Shown: piece by piece, positions 51,586 through 58,900 of the stretch
Numbering within the stretch: the stretch's first letter is position 1
Layout: each line of letters opens with the position of its first letter
From: Meiothermus sp.
Lineage (GTDB): Bacteria > Deinococcota > Deinococci > Deinococcales > Thermaceae
NCBI GenBank assembly: GCA_026004095.1
Contig: BPIL01000006.1
Coordinates: 62,001-126,000, forward strand
Length of the DNA: 64,000 nt
Reading direction: 5' to 3'
Translations under genes and position numbers: made by a program
Notes under the pieces: model-generated
Seen by the model: only the letters and a program-made list of their open reading frames with translations
The model's database searches: none
Told to the model about the DNA's origin: nothing

Positions 51586-51968
51586 TTACGGCTATAGCAG
51601 CCATATGGTTCGGGCTGGCAATGGCACCATAGCCCACCTCAAAAGCTCCGTTTGTGGATAAGAGCAACCTGCAAGCTGTACTGGGCATGTACGCCCAGGG
51701 GTATTTTCCCCTGGGGGTGGAGCATGGCATTGGCTGGTTCGACCAGCGGGCCTATGGCACGCCCTACCGCGCCCTGATACCGCTCGACGAACGCTTCCAC
51801 ATTCCGCGCAGTCTGAGGCGGGTTCTAAACAGCGGCCGTTTTGAAGTGCGCATCAACCACGATTTCGAAGGGGTTCTGGAGGGCTGCGCCACCCGGGGTT
51901 GGACGTATTCCAGCGAAACCTGGCTCACACCTGAGGTGGCTGATATGAAATCCTTTTGATTCATTCCC

Positions 51969-52529
51969 CTAACATCCCCCCGGCCACCAGTGAAATAGGG
52001 TGTAGCTCTGGATAAGCGCGGGCTGGGTTTGTAGGTAAGCGCACCGGGCTTCCACCTTGGCCCACAGCTCCTCTTCATCCTGCACCTGCCCATTGGCCAC
52101 GACCGCGTCAATGAGCCCCCAGACTCGTTCTACCGGCTGCAACTCGGGCGAGTAGGGTGGCAGATAACACAGCCCCAGGCCCTTGGCTGGCTCCACCCGC
52201 CCCGAGGTGTGCCAGCCAGCCTGATCCAGCACCACCAGTACCAGCTTGCCCGCCCCCGCCCCCCGTAGCCGGGCAAAGGCCTCCAACACCAACTGGAACC
52301 CCTCCACCGAGACCGAGGGCAGCAGCCAGTACTCGCTTTCCCCCGTACCCGGTCTTATGAAGGCGTACACATACAGCCAGCGATAGCGGGGCCGCTCCTG
52401 CGCTAGCGGCGTCCTCCCTCGCAAGGCCCATACCCGTCGGCGGATGGGCTTCAGCCCTATTCGGTGCTCATCAAAGCCCCACACCTCCAACTCCAGTTCA
52501 GGAAAGAGCAACCTGAACAGGAAAACCAT
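51969..52529 (-). CDS. IS630 transposase OrfB, DDE_3 domain (copy A)
   Basis: 186 residues with the RNase H-like catalytic core. First Asp in VWGFDEHRI, second in VVLDQAGWH, and the Glu in LQPVERVW. It lies in the -1 frame relative to orfA and overlaps its stop (TGATG), so the full transposase is probably made by frameshifting on the A7 run just upstream. Confidence 0.93.
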
Positions 52530-53041
52530 CAGAAAGAGCTTTTTTTGAAAGCCTCCTGCCGCTTCGCATCCGCCTCCCGGTGGCGCGGCCGGGGGCGCAG
52601 CGGGGCCAGGCCCAGGCGACGCATCCAGTACCAGGCCCGCCGCCCATCCACCGGACGTCCCAGCCTTTCAGCCAGCCACTCCGCAGCGTTGCGAATGCTC
52701 CAAAGCCCGTCCCTGGGATGGGGCTGGAGGAGGGCCTGGCGGAAGCCCTCCTGGAGTTCGGGCGGTACGAGGGGGGCCCGGCCTTTGTTCTCGTGCCGCA
52801 GATTCTTCATGGGCAGGCCCTGATTGTAGCGGTGGATTACCTGACGCACCCAGCGATCGGTATAGCCCAGATTCCTGGCTACCTCGGGGATGCTCTGACC
52901 CCTGGCCAGCAGCCAGAGAGCGTGCCAGCGGGCGCGTTCGGTGTGGTCTTGGGACTCCCGGTAGAGGGCGTGGAGGTTATCCGGATGGTGTCGCAGTTGG
53001 AGTTCCAACCGGGGGCGGCGCTGATGTTGGGCCAGTTGCAT
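52529..53041 (-). CDS. IS630 OrfA, helix-turn-helix DNA-binding part (copy A)
   Basis: 170 residues. Helix-turn-helix [29 protein letters not shown] followed by a winged-helix HTH_33-like region ([17 protein letters not shown]). It ends FKKSSF just after the slippery A AAA AAA G (52544-52550, read on the minus strand). It starts 39 bp inside the right end. Confidence 0.93.
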
Positions 53042-53433
53042 GGCTCCATTTTAGTGGAAAGAGTCTTGAAGATTTCTTATGAGTTATATAGAAGCCTTCA
53101 TCGCTATGGCTTTGCCCACAGCTTCGAGACCTGGTACGGCAACCAGCTCGCAGGCGGCATTCTGGGCATTGCGCTGGGGGCTGCCTTCATTGGTGACAGC
53201 ATGTTTTACAGCATTCCCAACGCTTCCAAGGTGGCTATGGTGCGCTTGGTCGAGCACCTGCGCGCTCGAGGTTTTGAGATTTTTGATGTGCAGGTGCAAA
53301 ACCCCCACCTGGCCCGCTTCGGCGCCATCGAGGTAGACCCCCTCGAGTTTCGCCAGAGGCTATGGCGGGCCATCCAGAAACCGGCCCGGTTTGTGGACTA
53401 GAACCGATGGTATCGCTTGGGCTATGCAGGCAC

Positions 53434-54683: not shown

Positions 54684-55484
54684 TTACACGGAAATTCCGC
54701 ACCAAAGCTCATAATCTTGCAGTGTAGATACACTAGGTTGCTCACCACACACCGGGCAGTCCGGGCGACGGGGGAAGCCCACCCGATGGAAGCGGGCCTG
54801 TAAACCATCGTAGAGCAGCAGCGTTCCGGACAGCACCTCCCCAAGGCCCAGCAGCACTTTTATCGCCTCGGTGGCCATCAAGCTACCAATCACGCCGGGA
54901 AGTACGCCAAACACCCCGGCCTCGGCGCAGCTAGGAACGGTACCAGGCCTGGGTGGCTGGGGGAACAGGCAGCGGTAACAGGGGCCCCCTTGGTGGTGAA
55001 ACACCGAAAGCTGACCCTCAAACTGGTGGATGGCCCCATACACCAGCGGTTTATCCAGCAGAACACAGGCATCGTTGAGCAGGTAGCGGGTTGGGAAATT
55101 GTCGGTGCAGTCGATTACCAGATCGTAGGGGTGCAGCAGCCTGAGGGCGTTTTCGGAGGTAATGCGCTCGGCATGGGCTTCGATCTGGATATGGGGGTTG
55201 AGGCTTTCCAGGCGGCTTTTGGCTACCTCGGCCTTGCGCTGCCCCACCGATGGGGTATCGAACAGCACCTGCCGCTGGAGGTTGGAAACGTCCACCCGAT
55301 CCATCTCGACCAGGCCCAGCCGACCCACCCCCGCCGCGGCCAGGTACATCAAGACCGGCGAGCCCAGCCCACCGGCCCCCACCACCAGCACCGCGCTCTG
55401 CTTGAGCCGGGCCTGGCCGGCCCCCCCCACCCCGGGCAGCACAATGTGGCGGGCGTAGCGATCCAGCTCTTCTCTGCTCCACAT
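54684..55484 (-). CDS. moeB: E1-like sulfur-carrier activating enzyme (MoeB/ThiF/TtuC family)
   Basis: 266 residues. It adenylates the C-terminal Gly of ubiquitin-like sulfur carriers (MoaD, ThiS or TtuB). ATP-binding GAGGLG (36-41), [26 protein letters not shown], zinc cysteines C169/C172 and C243/C246, and the catalytic C186 in CAEAGVFG. It has no rhodanese domain. One enzyme of this family, TtuC, serves several carriers in Thermus. TATAGT lies six bases before the ATG. The IS nest begins 30 bp upstream, and an open frame continues from IS sequence into this gene. Confidence 0.9.
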
Positions 55485-55490
55485 ACCAGC

Positions 55491-55496
55491 ACTATA
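55491..55496 (-). promoter_or_regulatory. -10 box of moeB, -35 region now in IS DNA
   Basis: TATAGT exactly six bases before the ATG. The expected -35 position falls at the IS end (junction 55514/55515), so the original -35 has been displaced. Confidence 0.5.
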
Positions 55497-55763
55497 GCCA
55501 ACCTGGTTATCTGATATGAAATCCTTTTGATTCATTCCCCTAACATCCCCCCGGCCACCAGTGAAATAGGGTGTAGCTCTGGATAAGCGCGGGCTGGGTT
55601 TGTAGGTAAGCGCACCGGGCTTCCACCTTGGCCCACAGCTCCTCTTCATCCTGCACCTGCCCATTGGCCACGACCGCGTCAATGAGCCCCCAGGTTCGTT
55701 CTACCGGCTGCAACTCGGGCGAGTAGGGTGGCAGATAATATGAAATCCTTTTGATTCATTCCC

Positions 55764-56324
55764 CTAACATCCCCCCGGCCACCAGTGAAATAGGGTGTAG
55801 CTCTGGATAAGCGCGGGCTGGGTTTGTAGGTAAGCGCACCGGGCTTCCACCTTGGCCCACAGCTCCTCTTCATCCTGCACCTGCCCATTGGCCACGACCG
55901 CGTCAATGAGCCCCCAGACTCGTTCTACCGGCTGCAACTCGGGCGAGTAGGGTGGCAGATAACACAGCCCCAGGCCCTTGGCTGGCTCCACCCGCCCCGA
56001 GGTGTGCCAGCCAGCCTGATCCAGCACCACCAGTACCAGCTTGCCCGCCCCCGCCCCCCGTAGCCGGGCAAAGGCCTCCAACACCAACTGGAACCCCTCC
56101 ACCGAGACCGAGGGCAGCAGCCAGTACTCGCTTTCCCCCGTACCCGGTCTTATGAAGGCGTACACATACAGCCAGCGATAGCGGGGCCGCTCCTGCGCTA
56201 GCGGCGTCCTCCCTCGCAAGGCCCATACCCGTCGGCGGATGGGCTTCAGCCCTATTCGGTGCTCATCAAAGCCCCACACCTCCAACTCCAGTTCAGGAAA
56301 GAGCAACCTGAACAGGAAAACCAT
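55764..56324 (-). CDS. IS630 transposase OrfB, DDE_3 domain (copy C)
   Basis: 186 residues, same sequence as the OrfB of copy A, with the Asp, Asp and Glu residues intact. It follows orfA in the -1 frame. Copies A and C therefore each have the parts of a functional transposase. Confidence 0.93.
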   Translation of the reverse strand: MVFLFRLLFPELELEVWGFDEHRIGLKPIRRRVWALRGRTPLAQERPRYRWLYVYAFIRPGTGESEYWLLPSVSVEGFQLVLEAFARLRGAGAGKLVLVVLDQAGWHTSGRVEPAKGLGLCYLPPYSPELQPVERVWGLIDAVVANGQVQDEEELWAKVEARCAYLQTQPALIQSYTLFHWWPGGC

Positions 56325-56836
56325 CAGAAAGAGCTTTTTTTGAAAGCCTCCTGCCGCTTCGCATCCGCCTCCCGGTGGCGCGGCCGGGGGCGCAGCGGGG
56401 CCAGGCCCAGGCGACGCATCCAGTACCAGGCCCGCCGCCCATCCACCGGACGTCCCAGCCTTTCAGCCAGCCACTCCGCAGCGTTGCGAATGCTCCAAAG
56501 CCCGTCCCTGGGATGGGGCTGGAGGAGGGCCTGGCGGAAGCCCTCCTGGAGTTCGGGCGGTACGAGGGGGGCCCGGCCTTTGTTCTCGTGCCGCAGATTC
56601 TTCATGGGCAGGCCCTGATTGTAGCGGTGGATTACCTGACGCACCCAGCGATCGGTATAGCCCAGATTCCTGGCTACCTCGGGGATGCTCTGACCCCTGG
56701 CCAGCAGCCAGAGAGCGTGCCAGCGGGCGCGTTCGGTGTGGTCTTGGGACTCCCGGTAGAGGGCGTGGAGGTTATCCGGATGGTGTCGCAGTTGGAGTTC
56801 CAACCGGGGGCGGCGCTGATGTTGGGCCAGTTGCAT
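56324..56836 (-). CDS. IS630 OrfA (copy C)
   Basis: 170 residues, same as OrfA of copy A, with helix-turn-helix and the A7 slippery run near its 3' end. Confidence 0.93.
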   Translation of the reverse strand: MQLAQHQRRPRLELQLRHHPDNLHALYRESQDHTERARWHALWLLARGQSIPEVARNLGYTDRWVRQVIHRYNQGLPMKNLRHENKGRAPLVPPELQEGFRQALLQPHPRDGLWSIRNAAEWLAERLGRPVDGRRAWYWMRRLGLAPLRPRPRHREADAKRQEAFKKSSF

Positions 56837-57238
56837 GGCTCCATTTTAGTGGAAAGAGTCTTGAAGATTTCTTATAACACAGCCCCAGGCCCTTGGCTGG
56901 CTCCACCCGCCCCGAGGTGTGCCAGCCAGCCTGATCCAGCACCACCAGTACCAGCTTGCCCGCCCCCGCCCCCCGTAGCCGGGCAAAGGCCTCCAACACC
57001 AACTGGAACCCCTCCACCGAGACCGAGGGCAGCAGCCAGTACTCGCTTTCCCCCGTACCCGGTCTTATGAAGGCGTACACATACAGCCAGCGATAGCGGG
57101 GCCGCTCCTGCGCTAGCGGCGTCCTCCCTCGCAAGGCCCATACCCGTCGGCGGATGGGCTTCAGCCCTATTCGGTGCTCATCAAAGCCCCACACCTCCAA
57201 CTCCAGTTCAGGAAAGAGCAACCTGAACAGGAAAACCA

Positions 57239-57751
57239 TCAGAAAGAGCTTTTTTTGAAAGCCTCCTGCCGCTTCGCATCCGCCTCCCGGTGGCGCGGCC
57301 GGGGGCGCAGCGGGGCCAGGCCCAGGCGACGCATCCAGTACCAGGCCCGCCGCCCATCCACCGGACGTCCCAGCCTTTCAGCCAGCCACTCCGCAGCGTT
57401 GCGAATGCTCCAAAGCCCGTCCCTGGGATGGGGCTGGAGGAGGGCCTGGCGGAAGCCCTCCTGGAGTTCGGGCGGTACGAGGGGGGCCCGGCCTTTGTTC
57501 TCGTGCCGCAGATTCTTCATGGGCAGGCCCTGATTGTAGCGGTGGATTACCTGACGCACCCAGCGATCGGTATAGCCCAGATTCCTGGCTACCTCGGGGA
57601 TGCTCTGACCCCTGGCCAGCAGCCAGAGAGCGTGCCAGCGGGCGCGTTCGGTGTGGTCTTGGGACTCCCGGTAGAGGGCGTGGAGGTTATCCGGATGGTG
57701 TCGCAGTTGGAGTTCCAACCGGGGGCGGCGCTGATGTTGGGCCAGTTGCAT
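57239..57751 (-). CDS. IS630 OrfA (copy B)
   Basis: 170 residues, intact and identical to the other two OrfA copies. Its partner orfB is broken, so it can yield only the DNA-binding part. Such a fragment might compete with full transposase; that is an inference. Confidence 0.9.
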   Translation of the reverse strand: MQLAQHQRRPRLELQLRHHPDNLHALYRESQDHTERARWHALWLLARGQSIPEVARNLGYTDRWVRQVIHRYNQGLPMKNLRHENKGRAPLVPPELQEGFRQALLQPHPRDGLWSIRNAAEWLAERLGRPVDGRRAWYWMRRLGLAPLRPRPRHREADAKRQEAFKKSSF

Positions 57752-57830
57752 GGCTCCATTTTAGTGGAAAGAGTCTTGAAGATTTCTTATGAGACCCAGC
57801 GCACATCCACAAAGTGGTTTGGTCGGTGAC

Positions 57831-58220
57831 TCATCCCTCGAGCCAGACCGGAACCTCCTCCGCCTGTGGCAGGCAAAAAGCCCGGAAGCCACCGGTTCGC
57901 ATATCGAAGATTACGTAGGGAACCCGCCAGTAAGCCTGCGCACGATCCGCTTCACTGGGCAGCGCCGGGCCGCTGGGGTGGGAGTGTACGATGGCGAGAA
58001 GCTCCAGGCCCCTTTGCTCAAGGCGCCGAACAGCTTCGATAAGGGCCTGGGGATCGGCCTCGTAGCGCTCACGGGGACGCGGGTGAACGTTGCGGAGCGG
58101 CCAGAACTCCACCACCCGCCCCACCCGGCCCACCCAGAGGCCCACCCCTTCGTGGGGCAGGGCGGCCCGCAGGTGGGCAAGGGTTCGCTCGAGGCAGGCC
58201 CTGGGCAGCCGCAGCATCAT
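57831..58220 (-). CDS. JAMM/MPN-domain metalloprotease-like protein
   Basis: 129 residues, a stand-alone JAMM domain. All zinc and catalytic residues are present: Glu24, then His79-Ser-His81-x7-Ser89-x2-Asp92 (HSHPSGPALPSEAD). Such proteins cleave isopeptide or C-terminal tails of ubiquitin-like proteins. In Thermus a JAMM protein removes TtuB from targets. The start overlaps the DUF2461 stop by four bases. The E1-like gene lies next downstream, now beyond the IS nest; without the IS the gap would be about 68 bp. Confidence 0.9.
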   Translation of the reverse strand: MMLRLPRACLERTLAHLRAALPHEGVGLWVGRVGRVVEFWPLRNVHPRPRERYEADPQALIEAVRRLEQRGLELLAIVHSHPSGPALPSEADRAQAYWRVPYVIFDMRTGGFRAFCLPQAEEVPVWLEG

Positions 58221-58900
58221 GGCTCTTCTGGCAACAGCAGGACTTCGCTCAAAAACTGGTTGAGCGGCAGCAGTTCACGAAACACCTTTTCTACGGCCGG
58301 GAGGAGTGCGTCGGAGGTAACCACCTCTTCGGCGAGGGGGTACGAAACCGTAAAGCTCCGCTGCTTGAGGTCTTCGATGAGGGGATGATCGGGGCGGTAG
58401 CCCCTGGGTGGGCGGGTGAGCTTGCCCTCCCCATCCAGCTCGAGCCGCTCGCGCAGCCGCAGCCAGCGATCATCCTGGCGGGCAATGGCGGCCCGGATGC
58501 GCCGCAGGTTTTCCGGCTCGGGCATCCAGATACCGCCGCCCAGGAAGCAGTTGTCGGGCTCGAGGTGGATGTAAAAGCCCGGCATGTGCACGTCCCGCCC
58601 CCGACGGTGGCGAAACTGGGCTGCGGCGTGGGTCTTGTAGGGGGCTTTGTTGGCGCTGAAGCGGGTATCGCGCTGGATGCGAAAGAGGCTCTGAGGGCCT
58701 GCCACATAATCGGGGCTAATTTTCTCGAGGTGCGGGGCAAAATCGGCGATAAAGCGCAAGAACGGCTGCCGCACCAGGGCCTCGTAGCGGGGTTTGTTGG
58801 CCTGAAACCAGTCGCGCCGGTTGTTGAAGCGCAGCTCGATCAGAAAATGGAAAAGCTCGGGAGAAAAATACGCTTGCTTTCTGGTGAGCACAGCCGCCAT
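58217..58900 (-). CDS. DUF2461 family protein (TIGR02453)
   Basis: 227 residues from ATG 58900. Family marks: FSPELFHFLIELRFNNRRDWFQANKPRYEALVRQPF at the N-terminus, RIQRDTRFSANKAPYKTH, and GFYIHLEPDNCFLGGGIWMPEP. The function of the family is not established. The stop overlaps the JAMM start (ATGA), so both are made from one transcript. Confidence 0.85.
   Translation of the reverse strand: MAAVLTRKQAYFSPELFHFLIELRFNNRRDWFQANKPRYEALVRQPFLRFIADFAPHLEKISPDYVAGPQSLFRIQRDTRFSANKAPYKTHAAAQFRHRRGRDVHMPGFYIHLEPDNCFLGGGIWMPEPENLRRIRAAIARQDDRWLRLRERLELDGEGKLTRPPRGYRPDHPLIEDLKQRSFTVSYPLAEEVVTSDALLPAVEKVFRELLPLNQFLSEVLLLPEEP

Follow-up and report, generated by a model that had tools for sequence, protein, structure and literature searches.

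Organization of the locus and the nested IS elements

In a 64,000-nt stretch of contig BPIL01000006.1 of Meiothermus sp. (the window; the genome is 84% complete), the genes for a DUF2461 protein, a JAMM metallopeptidase, and an E1-like adenylyltransferase follow each other on the minus strand, with two nested insertion sequence (IS) elements between the latter two. An earlier note on this DNA had taken the locus for a conjugation and deconjugation system of the TtuB type with the DUF2461 protein as a candidate new component. The comparisons reported here point to a different role, in which JAMM and E1 probably serve a MoaD protein that is fused to MoaE.

The JAMM gene (57831-58220) encodes a protein of 129 residues of the Prok-JAB type (Pfam PF14464, E 6.7e-20), which is the one JAMM match of this genome. 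Its motif E...HxHx7Sx2D is complete with E24, H79, H81, S89, and D92 (HSHPSGPALPSEAD at residues 79-92), and the same holds true for 57 of the 58 JAMM loci examined, the 58th being cut by a contig end. By sequence, the closest solved structures were 2kks and JAMM1 (5ld9/5lda), and the NCBIfam desampylase model matched with an E value of 3.9e-20, which is under the cut-off of that model. The E1-like protein (54684-55484, 266 residues, MoeB/ThiF/TtuC type; Pfam ThiF, E 8.4e-87) is also the single match in its genome and has kept GAGGLG at residue 36, the CxxC motifs at residues 169 (C169/C172) and 243 (C243/C246), and C186. The MoeB subfamily model PRK05690 alone scored above its NCBIfam cut-off (308.6 versus 266 bits), the remaining 23 listed models scoring below theirs; the model of UbaA, the SAMP-activating enzyme, matched with an E value of 3e-99, below its cut-off. 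The intact JAMM and E1-like genes on one strand reported in the earlier note were thus confirmed with respect to family, motif residues, and minus strand, and so was the gap expected without the elements (2346 bp minus 2278 bp, i.e., 68 bp).

The DUF2461/TIGR02453 gene (58217-58900, ATG at 58900) was identified with Pfam PF09365 (E 1.7e-64) and with the NCBIfam model TIGR02453 (222 bits versus a cut-off of 105). Its stop codon and the JAMM start codon share 4 bp; what had been called a translational fusion is therefore an overlap of two genes that encode two separate proteins.

Both IS elements are of the IS630 type, are oriented on the minus strand, and lie between JAMM and E1 without cutting either gene. 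The outer one (55515-57789) has 1136 bp without the inner copy and the target repeat of the inner copy and is flanked by the target repeats TGA (55512-55514 and 57790-57792). The inner one (55739-56874), which is inserted into the outer one, has 1136 bp with both open reading frames (ORFs) uninterrupted and is flanked by TAA (55736-55738 and 56875-56877). Terminal inverted repeats are present, with the ends TATGAAATCC and GATTTCTTA. Both transposase ORFs matched the NCBIfam IS630 model NF033545 (E 1.1e-34 and 6e-21), the DDE half above the cut-off (120 versus 100 bits) and the other half below it (75 bits), and the Pfam domain DDE_3 (PF13358) was found with an E value of 1.1e-21. A two-ORF DDE transposase matching NF033545 and PF13358 agrees with the IS630 family; the 3-bp TNA target repeats, which flank all three copies in the window (TGA, TAA, and TGA), differ from the 2-bp TA that IS630 members usually duplicate. 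Over its 1136 bp, the third copy (51944-53079) matches the inner one without a difference, and the outer copy differs from both at 2 positions. This third copy (region 51654-53401) splits aat, the gene for leucyl/phenylalanyl-tRNA-protein transferase, with halves of PF03588 on both sides; aat is one ORF in M. taiwanensis (L002).

Because no element is present in the JAMM-E1 gap of the relatives compared, namely, M. taiwanensis and G021 (probably one genome), G017, G005, and the nearest relative, G009, whose E1 is 99% identical, the nested pair is on this comparison a recent insertion between two intact genes. The nested elements claimed previously were thus verified, now with coordinates and target repeats. 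The statement that the gene pair had been split or broken by transposition holds for the intergenic space, but not for JAMM, E1, or the -10-like box described below, all of which are intact.

A composite promoter-like site (55491-55520, minus strand) was predicted in front of E1. It consists of a native -10-like box, TATAGT, at 55491-55496, 6 bp before the ATG, and a -35-like hexamer, TTCATA, at 55515-55520, which comes from the IS end, the spacer to the -10-like box being 18 nt. With 9 of 12 positions it was the sole promoter-like match in 55400-57900 (chance mean 0.5, standard deviation 0.8). The sequence TATAGTGCTGGT-ATG, which includes the TATAGT box, is kept in G021, G009, G017, and G005 and is absent from the remaining 13 genomes of the comparison. 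Probably, E1 has retained a promoter of its own close to its start codon, with the IS end contributing a weak -35 element. The E1 frame also stays open upstream into the IS, giving a 332-aa ORF (54684-55682) from a TTG inside the element, and an in-frame extended E1 product starting there is possible.

The MoaD-MoaE fusion and its co-occurrence with JAMM

The family of Meiothermus sp. was represented by 50 genomes in five genera. Of these, g4 (n = 27) was labeled Thermus-like from TtuB proteins up to 97% identical to that of T. thermophilus, and g1 (n = 18) Meiothermus-like from M. taiwanensis. T. thermophilus TtuB (65 aa), used as the query, matched none of the 16 family genomes with DUF2461, ours among them; of the 15 besides ours, 13 have a listed completeness of 99 to 100%. 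TtuB was found in 30 of the 50 family genomes (27/27 in g4, 1/1 in g5, 2/18 in g1, 0/2 in g2, and 0/2 in g3), which are 30 of the 34 without DUF2461. The TtuA-type family TIGR00269 was present in 29 of the 50 and in none of the 16 with DUF2461; its genomes are those with TtuB apart from G015, in which TtuB is partial and close to the end of a contig. G008 and G015 (L186 and L187) are the only Meiothermus-like genomes with TtuB; both have no DUF2461 match, a JAMM-E1 pair was not shown for them, and they nest among TtuB-less genomes in the tree, from which either a gain of TtuB by transfer or a repeated loss can be envisaged. The mutual exclusion of DUF2461 and TtuB was set aside as a functional signal, as it probably reflects few evolutionary changes (the tree being judged by eye).

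The TtuB link proposed for the locus therefore did not hold for this lineage, and the carrier that had been suggested to be encoded elsewhere in the genome was found only in another form: the sole ThiS-family match of our genome is a further ubiquitin-fold protein, MoaD, fused to MoaE. The lack of a ubiquitin-like carrier, which the earlier note had named as a result that would refute it, thus applies to TtuB only. The fusion ORF (L078, 1027-1734) encodes 235 residues with ThiS at 5 to 78 and MoaE at 98 to 208, and its ThiS domain ends in SGG. All but one of the 50 family genomes had a ThiS-family match, and a MoaD-MoaE fusion with a PP[VI]SGG junction ranked first in each of these 49, the Thermus-like genomes included. 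No separate ThiS was matched in our 84% complete assembly; G009 has a ThiS that lies in a thiamine-type cluster and ends in GG.

Across the order (111 genomes), the fusion was found as one open match in 73 genomes, MoaD and MoaE were unfused in 16, and 22 genomes had no match. Two separate matches account for 13 of the unfused genomes; in G096 and G097, a stop codon follows GG immediately, and G052 has MoaE alone. G099 has a second MoaD-like match in addition to the fusion. JAMM was present in 69 of the 73 genomes with the fusion, in none of the 16 unfused ones, and in 1 of the 22 without a match. When only genomes with a completeness of 90% or more and a contamination of 5% or less were counted, the numbers were 60 of 61 with the fusion versus 0 of 14 unfused; in this tally, values of 99% completeness and 1% contamination were used for most family genomes, and its total of 60 is in line with the JAMM survey. 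Outside the family, JAMM accompanied 21 of 24 fusions and none of the 16 unfused cases. Fisher's test gave a p value of ~3e-14 for genomes that are, however, related. In the 4 independent phylogenetic contrasts on well-supported branches, JAMM went with the fusion in 3.7 cases on average, showed no difference in 0.3, and never went against it; the underlying tree of MoaE plus E1 (64 rows; 23 rows with MoaE alone) has long branches, some of which meet. The direction of the association is thus consistent, and the contrasts are few.

For 12 unfused genomes the stretch examined included moaD, and in all 12 the MoaD ended in GG followed by a stop codon. In G096 (L230) and G097 (L231), neither of which has a JAMM match, GG and the stop codon of moaD stand exactly where the fusion linker would begin, and MoaE follows in frame, so the fused and unfused states differ by little.

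Gene order in related genomes and distribution of DUF2461

Of the 50 family genomes, 48 have JAMM, 49 have E1, and 16 have DUF2461. In 16 of the 48 JAMM genomes, counting our genome with its IS elements, JAMM and E1 lie next to each other on one strand; for two of these, G004 and G006, a contig end limited the view. In the IS-free relatives M. taiwanensis and G009, the two genes are contiguous, as the earlier note had supposed for an undisturbed JAMM/E1 locus. Beyond the family, the pair is found in family f4 in all JAMM genomes but one (11/12), the genes being spaced by -8 to +23 bp (in the twelfth, JAMM lies at a contig end and no E1 was found), and in 1 of 4 JAMM genomes of family f5 (158 bp). 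Judged from this spread, the adjacency of JAMM and E1 is old. In six gammaproteobacterial loci from metagenome-assembled genomes (L006 to L010 and L022), an E1 match of 42 to 44% identity lies directly upstream of JAMM, the reverse of the order in our locus. JAMM and E1 are ~5 kb apart on opposite strands in G011 and G015. In G011, JAMM follows ORFs that we take, by eye, to be thyA/dfrA-like, and the separation is a rearrangement and not an IS case.

Of the 16 family genomes with DUF2461, 14 have it immediately upstream of JAMM; the two exceptions are G012, with a 64-residue DUF2461 fragment 1.2 kb away, and G019, where a contig ends. Because this tie, overlapping or adjacent, spans three genera, the two genes likely share an operon. 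A different picture emerged outside this group. DUF2461 had no match in all 27 Thermus-like genomes, i.e., in the genus where the TtuB/JAMM system was shown, and in the f4 genomes, too, JAMM is not accompanied by a DUF2461 match. Outside the family, DUF2461 was found in 19 of the 61 genomes of the order, in none of them beside JAMM: in 3, JAMM is on another contig, and the remaining 16, all of family f5, had no JAMM match. At 23 JAMM loci of other phyla (24 loci minus that of M. taiwanensis), tblastn, which would miss a distant DUF2461, detected none. Five annotated plasmid neighborhoods of DUF2461, taken from 21 matching PLSDB records with incomplete gene tables, contained no annotated JAMM, E1, or carrier gene, the neighbors there being unrelated.

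Solved structures gave no sequence match to the DUF2461 protein up to an E value of 1, and a single-sequence AlphaFold model of it had a mean pLDDT (predicted local distance difference test) of 42. A viral scan with a DUF2461 alignment found no relative, and when phage records were searched with tblastn, 5 matches were obtained, all of them weak. Literature mentions of DUF2461 were judged from the titles listed to be unrelated, TIGR02453 was not mentioned in the papers searched, and among the titles listed for Meiothermus and JAMM none was about JAMM proteins. DUF2461 is probably a later, lineage-specific operon neighbor, and its membership in the processing system is unlikely; the proposal that it is a new system component is not supported by the Thermus-like genomes or by the 19 genomes outside the family.

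Proposed function of the JAMM/E1 pair

We consider it probable that JAMM and E1 form a pair that processes and activates MoaD, one half of the MoaD-MoaE fusion encoded elsewhere in the genome. Neither adenylation nor thiocarboxylation of MoaD is possible while its Gly-Gly end lies inside a fusion. By analogy with published cases, and provided that both genes are expressed, JAMM would cut after the internal Gly-Gly of the fusion and free MoaD and MoaE; the single E1 would then adenylate the freed Gly-Gly C terminus of MoaD, allowing sulfur uptake for molybdopterin synthesis, and, as suggested by its TtuC/MoeB family, would presumably serve ThiS too.

According to passages of two reports on Deinococcus radiodurans, the JAMM protein DR0402 (DRJAMM) cuts the MoaD-MoaE fusion DR2607, and cyclic pyranopterin monophosphate (cPMP) is present in the drJAMM mutant and absent in the wild type (PMC8832034; PMC9916421). 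Our genome shares with this case a JAMM plus a linear MoaD-MoaE fusion, here with a Gly-Gly junction, and differs in that JAMM stands beside E1 and, in Meiothermus-like genomes, beside DUF2461. Likewise, the MoaD-MoaE fusion MoaX of M. tuberculosis is described as working only once it is cut after Gly-Gly, by a protease that the same paper calls as yet unidentified (PMC4326299). Iyer et al. (2006) proposed that JAB peptidases process fused MoaD or ThiS, and their passage on classical thiamine or molybdenum operons notes no JAB genes (PMC1779556), which agrees with the position of JAMM away from moaD-moaE here.

Several observations weigh against an assignment of the pair to the fusion. There are only ~4 independent contrasts on well-supported branches (6 on all branches), and the p value of 0.125 is not significant. 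The fusion occurs without a JAMM match in G019, G064, G070, and G072 (three of them less than 90% complete), and JAMM occurs without a detected fusion in G067 (64% complete). MoaD-MoaE is not beside JAMM here or in the other genomes with coordinates compared, and tblastn found it near JAMM at none of the 23 loci of other phyla and E1 near JAMM at 7, six of which are the gammaproteobacterial loci mentioned above. JAMM and E1 were not seen as neighbors in 32 of the 48 family genomes, nor in any of the 6 JAMM genomes of families f2 and f3. The 32 include all 27 Thermus-like genomes, for 9 of which the flanks were examined over 1.5 kb on each side and for 18 over as much as 6 kb where the contigs were long enough; separation of the two genes without an IS, which according to the earlier note would speak against its reading, was thus found there. 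Finally, deletion of JAMM in Thermus also alters TtuB conjugates, as stated in part of PMC3980101, and a second substrate of the enzyme is therefore possible.

Some findings speak for the conjugation system of the earlier note. JAMM and E1 belong to the right families and are linked, DUF2461 is tied to JAMM in most family genomes that have it, and the enzymes acting on TtuB conjugates in T. thermophilus include TtuC and a JAMM (PMC3980101), TtuC being the one E1 common to TtuB, MoaD, and ThiS. A single E1 of this type plus a JAMM is found here as well; identities to the main matches of 26 Thermus-like genomes are 62 to 68% for E1 and 53 to 61% for JAMM, with only a short E1 fragment and 64% over a JAMM fragment in G042. 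In contrast to our genome, however, the Thermus-like genomes have JAMM and E1 apart and no DUF2461 match, and TtuB and TtuA were not found here, nor in any other family genome with DUF2461, as opposed to the frequent TtuB among those without it. A TtuB-type locus with a DUF2461 component is thus largely refuted and, of all readings, the one to which we give least credence.

We also regard conjugation of MoaD itself as unlikely: E1 could join the freed MoaD to lysines of MoaE or other proteins, and JAMM could both process the fusion and remove the conjugates, as in the SAMP1/HvJAMM1 system of Haloferax. HvJAMM1 cuts SAMP1-MoaE both as a linear fusion and in the covalently linked form, in the experiments described in a part of PMC4443979, and the matches to the UbaA and desampylase models, both below cut-off, point in the same direction. 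A UbaA-like E1 and a JAMM that is predicted to release a MoaD-like protein from MoaE are common to both systems, but the cellular link in Haloferax is a post-translational isopeptide bond on a MoaE lysine (PMC4443979), and here it is a genetic fusion. To account for the distribution of the JAMM gene, the fusion is sufficient, and MoaD conjugates lack direct evidence here. An extension, in which the Meiothermus-like pair runs a MoaD-based tagging cycle and DUF2461, as a lineage-specific partner, takes the place of the TtuB branch or redirects it, strikes us as highly improbable. Hardly more probable is that the substrate of JAMM is ThiS or an adduct of a carrier with cysteine (Mec+/CysO type) and that its link to the fusion is incidental. 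The ThiS of G009 might be named in favor of such a role, but it already ends in GG and needs no cut; moreover, no JAMM was matched where MoaD is unfused, and a Pfam scan of the four non-IS proteins of our locus revealed no cysteine synthase or carrier, although some JAB-type JAMM genes do lie with genes for ThiS/MoaD, E1, and cysteine synthase, according to a passage of PMC1779556.

With the assignment of JAMM and E1 to the MoaD-MoaE fusion, the pair of this order would gain a defined substrate, namely, a molybdopterin synthase in fused form, which, to judge from the published cases, is inactive until cut. We regard this substrate assignment, together with the co-occurrence of JAMM and the fusion, as the useful outcome of the analysis. 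The near-perfect co-occurrence suggests that processing, rather than protein tagging, is the widespread job of JAMM and that the deconjugation of TtuB in Thermus may be a second use of the same enzyme.

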